Source: Gammaproteobacteria bacterium (lineage in GTDB: Bacteria > Pseudomonadota > Gammaproteobacteria > UBA4575). From it: a stretch of DNA of 64,000 bases. The notes under the pieces are model-generated. The model did no database searches. It was not told where the DNA came from and saw only the letters and a program-made list of their open reading frames with translations. This document shows, piece by piece, positions 54,143 to 62,960 of this stretch (its first letter is position 1; each line of letters begins with the position of its first letter). Location of the stretch: contig WTFY01000003.1 of the NCBI GenBank assembly GCA_011523795.1, forward strand, positions 248,001 to 312,000, in the 5' to 3' direction. Position numbers and translations under genes: made by a program.

Positions 54143-54391
54143 ATGTACGTCTGCCTGTGCCATGCCGTGAAAGAAGCAGAAATTGCTGCTGCAGTGGCTG
54201 GTGGCTGCAAGGACCTGGATACCATCGGCGAGGCGCTGGGCGTCGGTACCAGCTGTGAAATCTGTCGTTCAGAAGCGCAGTCCATCATAGACACCGTGCT
54301 GCGCAACGCATCTCAACCTGAAAACGTCTGCAAACAGGAACTGATTTCAAAAAACCAAGCCTCTCCCCTGCAGCAAGTCATCAATTTTTAG
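54143..54391 (+). CDS. bfd: Bacterioferritin-associated ferredoxin
   Basis: This 82-residue [2Fe-2S] protein, which reduces Bfr to release iron, opens MYVCLCHAVKEAEI and continues to SCEICRSEAQ. That gives the four cluster Cys as CxC and CxxC. It is slightly longer at the C-terminus than the Escherichia protein. Divergent from bfr. Confidence 0.94.
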   Translation: MYVCLCHAVKEAEIAAAVAGGCKDLDTIGEALGVGTSCEICRSEAQSIIDTVLRNASQPENVCKQELISKNQASPLQQVINF

Positions 54392-54554: not shown

Positions 54555-57500
54555 ATGCAGTTACTCGACTCTGGCCATATCCGCTATTCCCCGTCGGACC
54601 TCGCCACATTCCTCGAATGCCCCCATGCCAGCTGGCTGGATACCAGGAACCTGACAGAGAAGCTGGACAGGAAAAGCCCCAGCCCTGTCGAGAGGCTCTT
54701 ATGGAAAAAAGGCCTTGAGCACGAAGGAAAGTATCTGGACCACCTGAGATCGACAGGGGCGGACGTCAGGGAAATCCCGCGTGGCACCACTCTGGAGAAA
54801 CAGGCCGAATCCACCGCAGAAGCAATCTCCGAAGGCGTGGACGTGATCTACCAGGCAGCTTTCCTGGAAGAGCCATGGTGTGGCTACGCGGACTTCCTGA
54901 TCAGACGTGATGCGTCATCAAGCCTTGGCCGTTTCAGCTACGAAGTGCTGGATACCAAGCTGGCCCGGACGGCCCGGCCCAAGCACATTATTCAGCTGTG
55001 CGCCTACTCGGAGATGCTTGCCGGCATTCAAGGCGTGCTCCCTTCGAACATGCAGCTATTCACGGGAAACAATGAAAGGCAAGTCTTCAAAGTCTCTGAT
55101 TTCTTTGCCTATTACCTGCGCACCAGGCAGCGTTTCGAGGCCCATGTAAGAGAACAGCCCGTCGACCCTTATCCCGAGCCCTGTGCGCACTGCAGGTTCT
55201 GCTCGTGGGAGCCACATTGTACCTCACGCTGGGAATCCGATGACCATCTGAGCCTGGTAGCAGGCATCCGGCGCACACAGTTGAACAAGCTTCAGAAAGC
55301 CGGCATTCGCACCGTGGCGCAACTCGCGACTGCCCGTGCAGACCTGGAGATTGCGGACCTGAACCAGGAGGTATTCCTTCGGCTTCGCCAGCAAGCTGCA
55401 TTGCAGGACGTCAAGAATAGAACGGGCAGGGATGCATACGAGGTGATCCCTTTTGCCCTACGCAAGGGTTTCGCACGCATGCCCGAACCGAGTGACGGTG
55501 ACCTGTTTTTCGACATGGAAGGCAATCCCCTGCATCCAGATGGCCTGGAATACCTGTTCGGCCTGCACCGCATGTCCGGTGGAGAGGCCGTGTTCGAGCA
55601 GTTCTGGGCACACGACCACGAAGAAGAAAAGGAAGCGTTCAAACAGCTGATGGGTTTTCTGGAAGATCACCTTGCCAGATACCCGCATGCCTATGTCTAC
55701 CACTATGGTCACTACGAGGTGTCCGCCCTGAAGCGCCTGTCAGGCCGGTATGCAGCCTGTGAAAAGCAGCTGGACAGCCTGCTTCGTGTACAAAAATTCG
55801 TAGACTTGTACCTGGTTGTTCGAGAAAGCCTGCGTTCATCGGAGCCAGGCTACTCCATCAAGAACCTCGAGACCTTTTATTGGGGCAAGCGAGCGGATCC
55901 TGTGGCCACCGCGGTTGACAGCATACTCGTTTACAACGAATGGCGTGAATCCGGTGAAGCGTCCTTGCTGCAGGACATTGCCGATTACAATCAGGTGGAC
56001 TGTACTTCCACCCGGATGCTGCGTGACTGGCTGCTGACGCTAAGGCCCGATGGTACTCCCTGGTTTACGCTTCAGGCTGAACACATGTTGAACACGGCAC
56101 GGCAGCAAAATGCTTCGGGTGCCAGCCATGAAAATGTCCGGGAAATCCTTGAAGAACGGCCGCTTGAATCCCCTGCAATAAACGAAAGGCTGACCCATCT
56201 TCTGGAATTCCATCAACGCGAGGCCAAATCACAGTGGTGGGACAGGTTTGAACGCCAGGCCAAGCTCGAGGACGAACTGATTGAAGATACCGAGTGCCTG
56301 GGTGGCCTGCAGCAGATCGGAGCCCCGGTGGCGAATGGGCTTACCGTCATCCACACGTTCAAATTCCCTCCACAGGAATACAAGCTGAGAGCAGGCAACC
56401 CCGTCGTAAACGTGGCCAATATGCAACCTGTCGGCAGGATCCTTGAGCTGGATGAGAACCACCGCGTCGTACGAATCGGACGAAGGTCGAACATGGAGCC
56501 ACCGCCAGCCCGGTTCACTGCCGGACCACCCGGCCCGGTCAACAGCCAGGGCATTCAATCGGCAATCTGCAGGTACGTGGAAAATGTCACCAGAAACCCC
56601 GGCAAAACCTTTGCAGCGACCGAACTTCTGGGCCGCAAGCTGCCCAGGATTCATGGCAAGGCGGCCGGAGCGCCCATCGTTGCATCACGGGACATCAAGG
56701 CTGAAACATTCCGGGCCATAGCCGGGCTGCAGGACAGCTACCTGTTCATCCAAGGTCCGCCCGGTTCAGGCAAGACCTACATCGCCAGTCACGTGATTGT
56801 CGAACTGGTCAGGCAAGGGAAAAAAGTCGGCATTTCATCGAATTCCCACAAGGCCATTCACAACCTGCTGTGCCGCGTGGAGAAGACAGTGGCAGAAAAG
56901 AACGTCAGCTTCCACGGAGTGAAAAAGGCAACAAGGGGTAACGAAGAGACATTCTTTGAAAGCAAGCTGATCTCAAACGAGACCAGGGTTGAAGACATTT
57001 GCCTGGACGCGGATATCTTTGCCGGTACGGCGTGGCTTTTTTCGCACGCGAGAATGCGGGATACGCTGGATTACCTGTTCATAGACGAGGCCGGCCAGGT
57101 CTCGACGGCCAATGTTGTCGCAATGGCGTCCTCTGCAAAAAACATCGTCCTCGTGGGAGACCAGATGCAGCTTGGCCAACCGGTCAAGGGAGTGCATCCC
57201 GGCGAGGCCGGGCTTTCAGTTCTTGAGTTCCTTCTCGGAGAAAATTCCACCATCGCCCCTGAACAGGGTATTTTCCTGGACAGAACCTACCGGCTGGGAC
57301 CCGGTATCTGCCGTTTTGTTTCCGCTGCGTTTTACGATGGCAAGCTGGCACCTCACGAAAATACATCACGGCGAATCCTGGACCTTCGTGGCTCGAACCT
57401 GCCCAGTGAAGGTTTGGTACTGGCCAGTGCAAACCACGAAGGCTGTTCCCAGAAAAGCGTCGAGGAAGGCGAGCTGGTGCGGACCCTGTACAGCGAGTTG

Positions 57501-57890
57501 CTGGACCAGCCTTTCAAAGACCTGAATGGCAGCGTACGGCCCGTCAACCGGGAAGATATTCTCGTGGTGACACCCTATAACGTACAGGTAAATTGCCTTC
57601 GTTCACTGCTGCCGGAAGGTGCGAGGGTGGGCACGGTAGACAAGTTCCAGGGACAGGAGGCACCCATCGTGTTGATTTCCATGGTGACTTCAAGTGCTGA
57701 AGACCTGCCTCGAAACGTCGAGTTCCTGTACAGCAAAAAACGCCTCAACGTGGCGATCTCCCGGGCCCAGTGCCTGGCTGTCATCATTGTAAACTCAGGG
57801 CTGCTGGAAATTTCATGCAGGACGGTTGAGCAAATGAAGCTGGCCAACACTTTCTGTCTGCTGGAAGAGTATGCGATGCCTCTTGAATGA
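54555..57890 (+). CDS. TM0106-type RecB-like nuclease fused to a DNA2/UPF1-type helicase
   Basis: This 1111-residue protein has three parts. The first 250 residues are a RecB-like nuclease with YEVLDTKLARTARPKHIIQL and a Cys cluster (CAHCRFCSWEPHC). The middle is an RNase H-like YprB domain (DGDLFFDMEGNPL, YHYGHYEVSALKRL, DYNQVDCTSTRML). The end is a superfamily-1 helicase with QGPPGSGKTYIASHV, LFIDEAGQVS, VGDQMQLGQPVKG and VDKFQGQEAPIVLISMV. This is the TM0106-type layout, with all motifs intact. Its biological role is not settled. It follows bfd by 163 bp; AGGCG precedes the ATG. Confidence 0.9.
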   Translation: MQLLDSGHIRYSPSDLATFLECPHASWLDTRNLTEKLDRKSPSPVERLLWKKGLEHEGKYLDHLRSTGADVREIPRGTTLEKQAESTAEAISEGVDVIYQAAFLEEPWCGYADFLIRRDASSSLGRFSYEVLDTKLARTARPKHIIQLCAYSEMLAGIQGVLPSNMQLFTGNNERQVFKVSDFFAYYLRTRQRFEAHVREQPVDPYPEPCAHCRFCSWEPHCTSRWESDDHLSLVAGIRRTQLNKLQKAGIRTVAQLATARADLEIADLNQEVFLRLRQQAALQDVKNRTGRDAYEVIPFALRKGFARMPEPSDGDLFFDMEGNPLHPDGLEYLFGLHRMSGGEAVFEQFWAHDHEEEKEAFKQLMGFLEDHLARYPHAYVYHYGHYEVSALKRLSGRYAACEKQLDSLLRVQKFVDLYLVVRESLRSSEPGYSIKNLETFYWGKRADPVATAVDSILVYNEWRESGEASLLQDIADYNQVDCTSTRMLRDWLLTLRPDGTPWFTLQAEHMLNTARQQNASGASHENVREILEERPLESPAINERLTHLLEFHQREAKSQWWDRFERQAKLEDELIEDTECLGGLQQIGAPVANGLTVIHTFKFPPQEYKLRAGNPVVNVANMQPVGRILELDENHRVVRIGRRSNMEPPPARFTAGPPGPVNSQGIQSAICRYVENVTRNPGKTFAATELLGRKLPRIHGKAAGAPIVASRDIKAETFRAIAGLQDSYLFIQGPPGSGKTYIASHVIVELVRQGKKVGISSNSHKAIHNLLCRVEKTVAEKNVSFHGVKKATRGNEETFFESKLISNETRVEDICLDADIFAGTAWLFSHARMRDTLDYLFIDEAGQVSTANVVAMASSAKNIVLVGDQMQLGQPVKGVHPGEAGLSVLEFLLGENSTIAPEQGIFLDRTYRLGPGICRFVSAAFYDGKLAPHENTSRRILDLRGSNLPSEGLVLASANHEGCSQKSVEEGELVRTLYSELLDQPFKDLNGSVRPVNREDILVVTPYNVQVNCLRSLLPEGARVGTVDKFQGQEAPIVLISMVTSSAEDLPRNVEFLYSKKRLNVAISRAQCLAVIIVNSGLLEISCRTVEQMKLANTFCLLEEYAMPLE

Positions 57891-58014: not shown

Positions 58015-58695
58015 ATGAACGCACTACGAAGTTCCCTGGAACTGTTATTTAACCTAGGCGGGCCGGTCGTACTGGTCCTTTTGATTTTCTCCGTAATTGG
58101 AACCGCGGTAATCCTGCTGAAAATCTGGCAGTTCATTGTGCTGCGCCTGGGATCGTCCAGGACTGCAGAGAAAGCCCTGCAGTTATGGCACAGTAATGAA
58201 CGGGAAAAAGCAATCGATACGGTTCGGAACAGAAACCACCCTGTGGCGAAAGTTCTGCACACTGCCTTTGTGCAGCTGCAGGCAAGACTGGGGACCTCTG
58301 TTGAAAATGCACGGGAAGAAACCCTGCGTGTGGCCCGCGCGCAACTCGAAAAACTCAGGAGCTATCTGCGAATCCTGGAAGTCATCGCTGCCCTGAGTCC
58401 CTTGCTTGGACTGTTGGGAACCGTACTTGGGATGATAAAAGTCTTCCGTGAACTGGAGCTGGCAGGCAGCAAGGTGGATCCTTCCATTCTGTCAGGCGGC
58501 ATCTGGGAAGCCTTGCTGACAACGGCAATGGGCCTGTCCATAGCCATCCCTGCAGTGTTGATGGTGAACTATTTTGACCGCGTGATAGACCGGGTCAGGC
58601 ACCGGATGGAAGATACGGCAACACGGGTGTTTACCAGCGACGAGCACGTACAGCAATCCGGCAAAGCGCAAGCCAGTCCAGCCTCTGCCGCTTGA
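58015..58695 (+). CDS. exbB: ExbB/TolQ-type proton channel protein
   Basis: This 226-residue membrane protein has three helices: one at about 14-40 and two in the second half (LEVIAALSPLLGLLGTVLGMIKVF and GGIWEALLTTAMGLSIAIPAVLMVNYF). The latter is the MotA/TolQ/ExbB signature. It forms the pentamer around ExbD. It starts an operon exbB-exbD-exbD-tonB with overlapping or near-touching genes. Confidence 0.93.
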   Translation: MNALRSSLELLFNLGGPVVLVLLIFSVIGTAVILLKIWQFIVLRLGSSRTAEKALQLWHSNEREKAIDTVRNRNHPVAKVLHTAFVQLQARLGTSVENAREETLRVARAQLEKLRSYLRILEVIAALSPLLGLLGTVLGMIKVFRELELAGSKVDPSILSGGIWEALLTTAMGLSIAIPAVLMVNYFDRVIDRVRHRMEDTATRVFTSDEHVQQSGKAQASPASAA

Positions 58696-58697
58696 CA

Positions 58698-59108
58698 ATG
58701 CAGATCGCAGAAGCCCGCAAGCAGCGCAGCCTGATCAGCCTGACTCCGCTGATCGACGTGGTGTTCATACTGCTGGTGTTCTTCATGCTCGTGACAGACT
58801 TTGCCAGGTTTTCCACCGTCTCTCTCAGTGTTGCGCAGGATGAAAGCTCAGTGGATACAAGACAGACGAGTTCAATCGTGCAGATCTCAAGCACGGGAGA
58901 ACTGCGGTTCGATCACGAGGAAATCCGCTTTTCACAATTGACCGGGCACGCAAAAGAAAAGCTTTCCGCAAACAAGAATCACATTTTCTTCATACAGCCT
59001 GATGACGAGACCCATTTGCAGGAGACGGTATTTGTGCTGGACGAGCTCGTCCAGCTTGCGCCCGAAAACATTTCGTTCCTCAGGGACCTTGCCAAGGATA
59101 CGCCATGA
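58698..59108 (+). CDS. exbD: ExbD, first copy (with the proton-path Asp)
   Basis: This 136-residue protein has one helix, SLTPLIDVVFILLVFFMLVTDF, with the conserved Asp near residue 19 that carries protons in ExbD/TolR. A periplasmic peptidoglycan-associated domain follows. ATG 58698 lies two bases after the exbB stop; a TTG two codons earlier is possible but overlaps exbB. Its stop overlaps the second exbD start (ATGA). Confidence 0.92.
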   Translation: MQIAEARKQRSLISLTPLIDVVFILLVFFMLVTDFARFSTVSLSVAQDESSVDTRQTSSIVQISSTGELRFDHEEIRFSQLTGHAKEKLSANKNHIFFIQPDDETHLQETVFVLDELVQLAPENISFLRDLAKDTP

Positions 59109-59503
59109 CGCTGACCGAATATCGAAAGACACAGGAATTCGAGAGCGTATTGCCCCTGATCAACGTGATCTTCCTGTTACTCATTTTCCTCATCATAGGC
59201 GGAATCTTCACCAAGCCTGAGTTGCTTGATGTGCACCCGCCTGAATCCATCAGTGAAAAGCAGTCACCGGATGAGACGATACAAATCCTCTTGGACAAGG
59301 AAGGCGAGCTGTCCCATGACGGAAAGATCATTTCGATGTACAGGTTTCAGCAAATCATGGAGCAGGCTGCACAGAACGATCCGAACATGCCCATCCAGGT
59401 AAAAGCCGATCATAAAGTTGCCATGCAGAAAGTCTTTGAGGTCATGGAAATTATCAAGAATGCAGGGCACGATAATTTTCAGCTGCTTACGTTGAAAATA
59501 TAG
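59105..59503 (+). CDS. ExbD-like protein, second copy with Asn in place of the proton-path Asp
   Basis: This 132-residue protein has the same layout as the first ExbD, but its helix is VLPLINVIFLLLIFLIIGGIF. Codon AAC at 59162-59164 gives Asn where the first copy has Asp (GAC). In Escherichia ExbD that Asp is required. The protein otherwise looks intact, with a periplasmic domain ending FQLLTLKI. It is coupled to the first copy by ATGA overlap and is 16 bp from tonB. It may pair with the first copy in an asymmetric dimer; this is inference. Confidence 0.9.
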   Translation: MTLTEYRKTQEFESVLPLINVIFLLLIFLIIGGIFTKPELLDVHPPESISEKQSPDETIQILLDKEGELSHDGKIISMYRFQQIMEQAAQNDPNMPIQVKADHKVAMQKVFEVMEIIKNAGHDNFQLLTLKI

Positions 59504-59519
59504 TACCCGTTTATCAGAA

Positions 59520-60281
59520 ATGGAAATTAGTTTCAGGCACTGGTTTAGTGTTCTCAGCATAGCTGTCCTGATTCACCTGTACGCCGCCCTGAATGTAAAC
59601 CTTACGGGCTTTACGGCAGAATCCAGGCACTCGTTTGACCAGTACACGGTCGATTTGACAACCCTCTCCCTGCCGCCCAAGCAGTTGAAGCTCGAGCCCT
59701 TCAAGCCACCACCCAAGAAAGCCCCTGTCCCTGAGGCAAAGCCAGTACCCAAGCCGAAACCGCAGCCGAAGCCCGTTCCGCCCAAAATTGTCACTCCAAA
59801 AGTTGAAAAGCCCAAGGTAGTGCGACCAGAGCTCGAAAAGCCCGTCCAGGCTACGCAGGTCACGCCCGTGGAAACTCGGTCCAGCGAGGCGCAACAGCCC
59901 GCACCCCAGCCATCTGTGCAGCAGCCAGCCCGCACGTCCACTGCCAAACCTTCGGCAAGCCACAGGCCTGCACCCAGGCCAGGATCCCAGACCGCGAAAC
60001 CGGGTTACTATAAACTGATACTCGAGAGGCTCGAACGCTTGAAAAAATACCCGTCGCGTGCACGACGCCGCGGTCAGCAGGGCACGGTAGTCCTGTCCTT
60101 CACCCTGAACAGGGACGGCAGCCTGAAACATTACAGGATCACCCAGAGCTCCGGGGCGAAATCCCTGGATCTTGAAGTAAAAAAACTGATCCTTCGCGCC
60201 ACACCTTTCCCGGCAATACCCAAGAATATAAGCTCTGACACGCTGGAAGTGTCCGTACCGATCTCGTTTTCACTTCAGTGA
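59520..60281 (+). CDS. tonB: TonB
   Basis: This 253-residue energy transducer has an N-terminal helix (WFSVLSIAVLIHLYAAL), a long Pro/Lys-rich spacer (about 60-165, for example EAKPVPKPKPQPKPVPPK) and a C-terminal TonB domain (YPSRARRRGQQGTVVLSFTLNRDGSL, ending VSVPISFSL). The His in the helix is six residues after Ser, not four as in the SxxxH of Escherichia TonB. The cognate receptor lies just downstream on the other strand. Confidence 0.92.
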   Translation: MEISFRHWFSVLSIAVLIHLYAALNVNLTGFTAESRHSFDQYTVDLTTLSLPPKQLKLEPFKPPPKKAPVPEAKPVPKPKPQPKPVPPKIVTPKVEKPKVVRPELEKPVQATQVTPVETRSSEAQQPAPQPSVQQPARTSTAKPSASHRPAPRPGSQTAKPGYYKLILERLERLKKYPSRARRRGQQGTVVLSFTLNRDGSLKHYRITQSSGAKSLDLEVKKLILRATPFPAIPKNISSDTLEVSVPISFSLQ

Positions 60282-60344: not shown

Positions 60345-62960
60345 TCAGAACTGGTATTCCAGGGTTGCGTAGTAAAACCCGCCGTTGAAACCGAAGGGTG
60401 CTGCGCGCCTGGAGTAAGTAAATACTCCATCCGATGAGACAACCGTATTTCCCTCTGCATCCACGATTGTGCCGGCTCGCGAACGACTGATCTTGTCCTT
60501 GTCCGGCTCATTATCGAAAAGGTTATCGGCACCCACCTTGATAGTCATGCCCGGACCCACCTCATAGCTCATTTGCACATCTGTGATAAGTTCAGAATCA
60601 TAAGACTGTTTCTTGAATTCTCCCCCGACTTCTTCCGCGATCCTGTAGTTCCCGTACCGCTGTACGGAAGCTGAAGCGGAGAACTTCCCCAGCCTGTAAA
60701 GCGCCGTCAGGGCCGCCCGGTTCTTGGGTTGCCAGTCTTCAATAATCGACCGGTCCAGGTCAGTGAACAGTGATGTCGGCAGGCCTGCCGGCAGGTTGAC
60801 AGAATCGATTTCAGTGTCCGTCCAGGATCCGAGTAGCTGCAGGGTCAGGTCACCTCGAATTTCGTAAGGTACATCCCAGGTGATTACGATATCGGCTCCC
60901 TCGGTCACCGTGTCCACACCGTTCATGAAGAACTGCGCCCGGCTGACCCCTTCCCGCTTCAGCGATTCAATGATCGAGTCAGAAAGCTCGCTGGACTGAC
61001 CTGCACCAGGCACTGTCAACTGCCCGCTGACAATGATTCGGTCATCGACTTCAATCCTGTACAGGTCCGCGGTAAGCGCCAGGGAAGGAGACGGCTGGAA
61101 AACAAAGCCTCCGCTGAAGTTGATGGATTCCTCTTTATCCAGTTCCGGGATACCGATTGCCTTGGCAAGCGGTCCGTCGTTACGGAATGTTCCTACCTGG
61201 AATCCCTGGCCGCCGCGGAACTGTGTGCTGATATTGTTGAAGTAGATCTGCTGCATGGAAGGTGCGCGGAATCCTGAACTGACCGATGCACGGAAGGAAA
61301 GCGTTTCATTCAGGTCCAGCTTGGATGCAATCTTGCCGTTCAGGGTATCGCCAAAGTCACTGTAATCCTCGTAGCGCAATCCCAGCCCCAGCTGAAGCCT
61401 GTCATTCACCTGGATATCGGTGTCTACATAAAAGGATTCTGCATGCCTGGTTTCGCTGACTTCGTTGCCCGGCTGGAATCCCGGGAAGACCTGTATGCCG
61501 CCATCTCCTCCGCCTTCACCGTCATAATCTGCATAGGAGTACAGCTCTCCCGCATCGATTTCATAACGGTCACGCCTGTACTCGGCTCCCCATGCGATGT
61601 CGGCACGCTTGTACGGGATTGTGAAGTCAAGGTTCACAGTAGTCAGGTCCAGGCCCAACTCGCCCGAGTCTGCACTCGTCTGGGTCGCTCCAGTAAATTC
61701 GGTACCAGGAAATGCCGGGTAGGCACTCCCCGGATTCAGCATCCTGTTTACCCAGGAAGCGTTTTGCGAGTTTCGTATATCGAACTCGAAGGTGTTGCCT
61801 CCATGCACAACGCTGAAATCGACCGTCAGTCCGTTTTCAAACTCGCGGCGGATCCCTGCGCCCATGGAATAATCCTGTACGGTCGTATCGATCCGCGGCA
61901 AAAATCCGTCAGGATAAATTGAACCAACCGGATTCCGGTTTCCCTGATTTGCGCGCCTGTAGAATCCACCACTCAGGTTGGTCGAACGCGAATAATTCGC
62001 GAATCCATACAGCTCTCCCCAGTCATCCATGATGGGCTGAACAAGGTTCAGGGAACTGACAAAATGCTCCTGTTCGGCATCCCCGATTCTGAAGTTGCGA
62101 CGTTCAAAATCACGCTCCTTGTTGCCCGGATCCTCTCTGATCGTCTGGACTCCCTCAACAAATGTGCAGTCTGTGTCGCCAGCGGCACATAGCACCGTGT
62201 CCGGATACTGGATCTGGGCAGACTTTCCGGCGCGGTTGGTCCGGTCACGCTCGTTGTATTCGAGGGCCAGGTGCAGCACCCCATCATTGCCCAGGGCAAA
62301 CCCTTTGTTGGCACCAACCGAACGGCGTTCACCATCACCATGGAAAGTGGACCCGTACAATCCCCGCAGCGTGCCCTCGTAATCCTCCTTGAGAACGATA
62401 TTGATGACCCCTGCCACGGCGTCCGAACCGTACTGCGCCGAAGCTCCATCTCTCAAAACCTCGACTCTTTCAATGGCATGTACCGGAATGGCATTCATGT
62501 CCGTGCCCGCCGTGCCCCGACCCACCGAAGTATTGACATGAATCAACGCACTTCCATGCCGCCTCTTGCCGTTGACCAGCACCAGGACCTGGTCGGGACC
62601 CATGCCGCGCAATGTGGCGGGACGCACCGAATCCGTGCCGTCGCTGATTGTCGAGCTGGAAAAATTGAACGAAGGGATAAGGGCCTGGATGGCACGTCCC
62701 AGTTCACTCTGCCCGGTCCGAACCAGTTCTTCTCCACTCACCACGTCGACAGGAACCGGCGAGTCAGCAACACTGCGCTCCCCGAACCGGCTGCCTACCA
62801 CGACGATTTCACCCAGCTCGACAGCCTCCTGGCCAGAGACAGTCAAGGAAGCCAGCATGAGCAGTAATGCCACGGTGCCCTGCACCCAGTGACCGGTTGT
62901 AAAACAGTTCTTTTCGATTTTCATGGTATCTTTCATTATAGTGTTCACCAATATATTCAA
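60345..62960 (-). CDS. TonB-dependent outer-membrane receptor
   Basis: This 871-residue protein has a signal peptide ending near VSG (about 43), a TonB-box-like GEIVVVGSRF, the plug domain (TLRGMGPDQVLVLVNGKRRHGSALI, IERVEVLRDGASAQYGSDAVAGVINIVL) and a beta-barrel ending YATLEYQF. Several upstream ATGs exist (62960, 62936, 62924), and the true start is not certain. The ligand is unknown. It converges on the exbB-exbD-tonB operon, which very likely energises it. Confidence 0.9.
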   Translation of the reverse strand: MNILVNTIMKDTMKIEKNCFTTGHWVQGTVALLLMLASLTVSGQEAVELGEIVVVGSRFGERSVADSPVPVDVVSGEELVRTGQSELGRAIQALIPSFNFSSSTISDGTDSVRPATLRGMGPDQVLVLVNGKRRHGSALIHVNTSVGRGTAGTDMNAIPVHAIERVEVLRDGASAQYGSDAVAGVINIVLKEDYEGTLRGLYGSTFHGDGERRSVGANKGFALGNDGVLHLALEYNERDRTNRAGKSAQIQYPDTVLCAAGDTDCTFVEGVQTIREDPGNKERDFERRNFRIGDAEQEHFVSSLNLVQPIMDDWGELYGFANYSRSTNLSGGFYRRANQGNRNPVGSIYPDGFLPRIDTTVQDYSMGAGIRREFENGLTVDFSVVHGGNTFEFDIRNSQNASWVNRMLNPGSAYPAFPGTEFTGATQTSADSGELGLDLTTVNLDFTIPYKRADIAWGAEYRRDRYEIDAGELYSYADYDGEGGGDGGIQVFPGFQPGNEVSETRHAESFYVDTDIQVNDRLQLGLGLRYEDYSDFGDTLNGKIASKLDLNETLSFRASVSSGFRAPSMQQIYFNNISTQFRGGQGFQVGTFRNDGPLAKAIGIPELDKEESINFSGGFVFQPSPSLALTADLYRIEVDDRIIVSGQLTVPGAGQSSELSDSIIESLKREGVSRAQFFMNGVDTVTEGADIVITWDVPYEIRGDLTLQLLGSWTDTEIDSVNLPAGLPTSLFTDLDRSIIEDWQPKNRAALTALYRLGKFSASASVQRYGNYRIAEEVGGEFKKQSYDSELITDVQMSYEVGPGMTIKVGADNLFDNEPDKDKISRSRAGTIVDAEGNTVVSSDGVFTYSRRAAPFGFNGGFYYATLEYQF

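Follow-up and report, generated by a model that had tools for sequence, protein, structure and literature searches.

A conserved Ton-motor variant in which an Asp-bearing ExbD is paired with a second ExbD bearing Asn at the proton-path site

Bacteria rely on the Ton motor to drive the import of nutrients through the outer membrane. The Ton operon described here harbors two adjacent exbD genes, the first of which encodes the transmembrane aspartate of the proton path, and the second an asparagine at the same place. The operon lies within a 64,000-nucleotide stretch of gammaproteobacterial DNA (hereafter the window), which comprises positions 248001–312000 of a contig in a 2.07 Mb genome (97% complete). 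The split between Asp and a neutral residue recurs in 106 of 107 distinct tandem pairs, far beyond what chance would produce, and we regard the arrangement as a real and conserved variant of the Ton motor that apparently has not been described before. We consider it likely that the two genes specify a motor in which an obligate ExbD1:ExbD2 heterodimer, with one protonatable site, would act as the axle in the ExbB pentamer; such a motor would probably be lopsided by design.

The operon is intact and reads exbB–exbD1–exbD2–tonB, head to tail on the forward strand (Table 1). ExbB displays the GTV and W-E-A-L-L-T-T motifs of the ExbB type, and together with exbD, a TonB possessing its C-terminal domain and a receptor nearby, it identifies the locus as a Ton system. 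The ATG start of exbD1 is found 2 bases past the exbB stop (an alternative TTG start at 58692 is possible), while exbD1 and exbD2 overlap by 4 bases (ATGA), a spacing that makes co-translation plausible. An earlier note, made from the sequence alone, had read PLIDVVF in the first copy and PLINVIF in the second, and had taken the latter for an intact and co-translated member of the same operon. Both residues were confirmed (the surrounding sequences being SLTPLIDVVFILLVFF in ExbD1 and VLPLINVIFLLLIFL in ExbD2), and both proteins match the Pfam profile PF02472 almost end to end, at scores (Table 1) that exceed its cut-off of 25.4 bits. By profile, both belong to the ExbD/TolR family; the transmembrane Asp of proton transfer is present in ExbD1 and absent from ExbD2, i.e. 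ExbD2 is an ExbD/TolR homologue without the proton-carrying feature. Neither protein passes the NCBIfam ExbD/TolR equivalog models (at most about 45 bits, against cut-offs of 123-216 bits).

Table 1. Features of the Ton operon in the window (positions within the window, unless a locus is named) and separated ExbD genes in Salinisphaerales.
Feature	Position	Strand	Description
exbB	58015..58695	+	MotA/TolQ/ExbB proton-channel subunit, presumed pentamer; Pfam PF01618, 109 bits
exbD1	58698..59108	+	transmembrane Asp20, equivalent to E. coli Asp25; PF02472, 77.6 bits; first-copy clade
Proton-path Asp codon of ExbD1	58755..58757	+	GAC, read from the sequence
exbD2	59105..59503	+	ExbD paralogue; Asn20 occupies the proton site, and the periplasmic domain is intact and of the ExbD type; PF02472, 77.8 bits
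Asn codon of ExbD2	59162..59164	+	AAC, Asn in place of the proton-path Asp, read from the sequence
Periplasmic Asp102 codon of ExbD2	59408..59410	+	GAT, column of E. coli Asp107
tonB	59520..60281	+	transmembrane His, Pro-rich linker and C-terminal domain; PF03544, 65.2 bits; TIGR01352
Possible TonB D-box	59643..59663	+	YTVDLTT, proposed because hydrophobic and hydrophilic residues alternate (pattern after PMC10907165)
TonB-dependent outer-membrane receptor	60345..62960	-	PF00593 and PF07715; convergent to the Ton operon
Separated Asp/Asn ExbD genes (Salinisphaerales)	L310 785-1216 and 6666-7127; L106 and L311		

The convergent receptor is likely a client of the motor encoded by the operon, and the YTVDLTT stretch of TonB may be the segment that binds the ExbD dimer. 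The gene directly upstream of the operon (54555-57890) encodes a large protein with RNase H-like nuclease and AAA_11/AAA_12 helicase domains. About 3.6 kb upstream of the operon we observed a small Cys-rich protein (54143-54391) that by eye resembles a bacterioferritin-associated ferredoxin, a possible link to iron.

A scan of genome contigs with the single protein gave no match, and relatives were obtained with an alignment-based scan of one genome per species, which yielded 302 confirmed relatives, 80 of them kept and read. Because the scan pattern itself contained Asn, the count was repeated using a profile built from the Asp copies, across 398 genomes from the phylum and 274 from the class. 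Among the loci read from this search, in which Asn was left unselected, there were 26 tandem pairs, and their second copies bore Asn in 23 cases, Ser in 2 and Asp in 1; within the class sample, 16 of the 274 genomes (about 6%) had an Asp-type copy with a score of more than 118 bits. The tally of Asp and Asn in tandem pairs, which the earlier note had called for, came to 107 distinct pairs, all with Asp in the first copy and with Asn (103), Ser (3) or Asp (1) in the second, although these sequences are related and the pairs do not amount to independent events. The pair was recovered from Gammaproteobacteria (Thioalkalivibrio, Aquisalimonas, Halorhodospira, Methylophaga, Woeseiaceae and Porticoccaceae) and from Alphaproteobacteria (Nisaea, Tistlia, Thalassospira, Rhodospira, Marivibrio, Aquibaculum and Kiloniellaceae), so that the supposition that Asn-containing ExbDs exist in other gammaproteobacteria was right, and indeed too modest, such proteins being common among Alphaproteobacteria as well. 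One record in which the pair groups among proteobacterial sequences (L054, CP051228.1) is titled Mesoflavibacter (Bacteroidota), a name that is probably wrong. At closer range, orthologues from the same genus (64–76% identity) show the same Asp/Asn split, and Asn20 is invariant in 13 homologues whose identity to the ExbD2 of the window goes down to 26%. Furthermore, the Asn of the second copies is encoded by AAC in 65 cases and by AAT in 38, though Asp is only one transition away.

The order exbB-exbD-exbD-tonB is found in 92 of the 107 pairs, tonB being undetected in the stretch read around the other 15. In all placed cases but one, the start of the second copy falls between -11 and +23 bases from the stop of the first (with the ATGA overlap in 31), and such near-zero or overlapping junctions suit a 1:1 output of the two proteins. 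The three second copies with Ser (MTPLVSVIFLL) belong to related genomes (L126, L127 and L133), and suggest that the site calls for neutrality rather than for Asn specifically. The only operon with Asp in both copies (L156, 1474-2359) has the order exbB-exbD-exbD-tonB, and may preserve the state before the loss of Asp; in the larger tree its second copy falls just outside the Asn clade, a position that would fit an ancestral Asp/Asp pair.

The two copies have diverged beyond the proton site. A tree of 186 rows has a branch that sets the second copies apart, with almost all first copies gathered in another clade; when the Asp/Asn column was removed and the search was conducted carefully, the first copies fell on one side of a branch (supports 92/71) and the second, Asn-bearing copies on one side of another (82/73), such moderate values being expected from 125 columns. 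Four residues before the site, Thr is present in 106 of 107 ExbD1 sequences and Leu in 98 of the ExbD2 ones. In the column of E. coli Asp107 (periplasmic domain), Asp is found in 97% of the second copies, in 97% of single ExbDs and in 13% of the first copies. The family trend is that most first copies are devoid of the periplasmic Asp and the second copies of the transmembrane one; it is incomplete in the ExbD1 of the window, which retains Asp in this column (QPDD) and belongs to the minority of first copies in doing so. Moreover, the predicted fold of ExbD2 (single chain, mean pLDDT 76) matches that of E. coli ExbD with a TonB peptide (8vgc/8p9r) at a TM-score of 0.82–0.83 by target length.

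The genome from which the window derives has at least 6 TonB-dependent receptors and 3 ExbD-family genes, the third of which passes the NCBI cut-off for TolR (134.6 against 127.3 bits). In 8 genomes checked (this one included) the Asp/neutral pair is the only ExbD besides TolR, and must therefore serve the Ton receptors; in other genomes with the pair extra ExbDs are present. In one of the loci read (L066, 2082-2597) a third exbD gene, encoding Asp, precedes an Asp/Asn pair by about 0.9 kb. Every Asp-type copy found has a second ExbD as partner, which is neutral in all but one case. Two loci from Salinisphaerales (L049 and L106), in which the Asn copy has no ExbD neighbor, were considered as counter-examples and dismissed, as both genomes have an Asp-type copy elsewhere (at a distance of 5.9 kb in one genome, on a separate contig in the other; Table 1). 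These Asp-type copies score 104 and 102 bits with the first-copy profile, against 45 and 47 with the second-copy profile, and the presence of both types in the two genomes indicates that they are retained together without close linkage. Neither exbB nor tonB was detected in the stretches read around the separated genes.

In homodimeric ExbBD, the two aspartates are thought to take turns. Rotary models assign 36 degrees to each proton, with one of the two Asp carrying it (PMC12215075). In the heterodimer that we propose, ExbD1 would furnish the sole protonatable transmembrane Asp, whereas ExbD2 would have a permanently neutral side chain (Asn, in rare cases Ser) at that position and would contribute a second ExbD-like periplasmic domain. 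From this we infer the mechanical consequences: with a single Asp, about half as many protons would be used per turn, and the motor would either advance in steps of about 72 degrees or leave every second step unpowered. The symmetric state with both Asp hydrogen-bonded to ExbB, which has been proposed as the closed one (PMC10771500), could not form with one Asp. The E. coli ExbD D25N mutant is inactive (PMC11658791), so a dimer made only of Asn chains should not drive transport. Two unlike periplasmic domains would surround one TonB; as a single TonB D-box is bound per two ExbD chains, running parallel with one of them and antiparallel with its partner (PMC10907165), a dimer of different chains could determine the part that each of them plays. 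The ExbD dimer interface includes Ala106 (PMC10771500), the residue that adjoins the diverged column of the periplasmic Asp107. The proposed heterodimer would fit all of these published observations.

Conservation of the pair would likewise be compatible with a second subunit in a regulatory role, i.e. a brake: Asn homodimers, or an excess of mixed dimers, would occupy ExbB and conduct no protons, so that some motors stay idle and ExbD1 homodimers carry the load. The Asn copy is indeed conserved and intact, the inactivity of D25N in E. coli (PMC11658791) would suit such a role, and Xanthomonas takes up iron without the need for its exbD2 (PMC3551730), although the latter gene belongs to a different arrangement, with tonB first. 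Some lineages, however, should have lost or uncoupled a regulator, yet each Asp-type copy was found to be partnered, and the partners persist even when unlinked. Translational coupling further suggests equal amounts of the two proteins, and most first copies, being devoid of a periplasmic Asp that is kept in 97% of other ExbDs, are unlike ExbDs that stand alone. On these grounds we regard the brake as rather unlikely, although it is the most probable among the alternatives.

An ExbD2 that acts outside the pore (as a helix-anchored periplasmic adaptor for TonB or peptidoglycan, whose helix need not carry protons) would be in line with a periplasmic domain that keeps the residues conserved in other ExbDs and is predicted to match the fold of TonB-bound ExbD. 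We deem this improbable, given that the transmembrane helix (LPLINVVFLLLIFF) is the most conserved part of ExbD2, retains the pattern of an ExbD pore helix (needless in a simple anchor) and has its site held as Asn. Deamidation of the finished protein from Asn to Asp, which would restore an ordinary Asp/Asp dimer, is more doubtful still: deamidation of Asn does happen in proteins, but here the Asn is invariably followed by Val (65 cases) or Ile (38 cases), both of them slow contexts, and the Ser of three second copies cannot become Asp. Least credible of all is a decaying duplicate, or an error of sequencing or assembly. Duplicated genes frequently decay, and the earlier note had named decay as the more likely explanation should the Asn copy prove rare and unconserved in its clade; it proved to be retained in both Gamma- and Alphaproteobacteria, accompanied in every case by a copy with Asp. 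Conservation leads us to reject decay and error as the source of the Asn, which is invariant among the same-genus genomes and present in 103 of 107 pairs, where its codon varies synonymously and Asp is almost absent. The asymmetric Asp/Asn dimer, which that note had envisaged, appears to be the best available explanation, to which the divergence of the two periplasmic domains would add support.

The operon shares with the ExbBD-TonB systems of E. coli and Serratia the domains of ExbB, ExbD and TonB, the gene linkage, the ExbD fold, the Asp (in ExbD1) and the presumed 5:2 stoichiometry. It differs in that the known systems have an ExbD homodimer in the ExbB pentamer, whereas here two types of ExbD are encoded, with Asn at the Asp25 site in ExbD2 and with the equivalent of Asp107 mostly absent from the first copies. 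Tandem exbD genes within one Ton operon are already known from Sphingobium SYK-6 and Xanthomonas; the gene order there is tonB-exbB-exbD1-exbD2, in contrast to the exbB-exbD1-exbD2-tonB order and the Asn-bearing second copy of the window, and in Sphingobium SYK-6 Asp25 is conserved in both copies (PMC8599685). MotAB and other 5:2 rotary motors follow a homologous proton-site logic, but their axle is a homodimer with two Asp; the D22N substitution of MotB has served to imitate the protonated form (PMC9389320). Within the open-access literature searched, we found no paper that describes paired ExbDs with Asp in one and Asn in the other.

Models of MotAB, ExbBD and TolQR assume that two equivalent Asp take turns as ring and axle rotate. 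If our reading is correct, a naturally occurring motor that combines a single Asp with a fixed neutral residue would offer a ready-made test of how proton flow is converted into force: each turn should cost fewer protons, the steps should be longer or include half-steps that are unpowered, and each ExbD chain should have its own definite part in the grip on the one TonB. The Asn gene seems to be present in about 300 species genomes, of which several have no further Ton motor and some belong to named, cultured isolates, which makes a test of the single-Asp motor practical.

Another tandem ExbD pair with one Asn and one Asp was observed in operons that encode two TPR proteins, an ExbB-type protein and an AgmX/PglI-tailed protein related to GltG. 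These probably are the Agl/Glt core operons reported from Gammaproteobacteria (PMC3169522), and resemble both AglRQS and the operon of the window in having one MotA/ExbB-type subunit and two ExbD-type subunits (one with Asn and one with Asp in the operons read). Here, Asn is in the first copy (TAFMNLMVILVPF) and Asp in the second (SLMDIFTILVFF) in 35 of 35 loci (L265-L269 and L273-L302, a few places being counted again). They differ from the window operon by the AgmX/PglI-tailed output protein, by the Asn coming first and by their separate clade; conversely, the output protein of the window operon is an ordinary TonB, not one of this type. For AglQ and AglS, a review predicted Asp in both and treated the choice between hetero- and homodimers as undecided (PMC9389320). 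In the 186-row tree the two Agl/Glt-like ExbDs group most closely with each other, suggesting that their Asn arose separately, and with the site column removed the tree requires two changes to account for Asn in the two systems; since a single origin is not rejected by the AU test (p 0.42), we do not claim independence. We hold it evenly balanced whether ion-driven 5:2 motors evolved into obligate heterodimers with a single proton site per axle, perhaps twice (in the Ton system of Alpha- and Gammaproteobacteria and in the Agl/Glt-like one of Gammaproteobacteria), so that alternation between two Asp would be unneeded for the generation of force. The Asn copy of the Agl/Glt-like type was matched in 60 of 274 gammaproteobacterial genomes.
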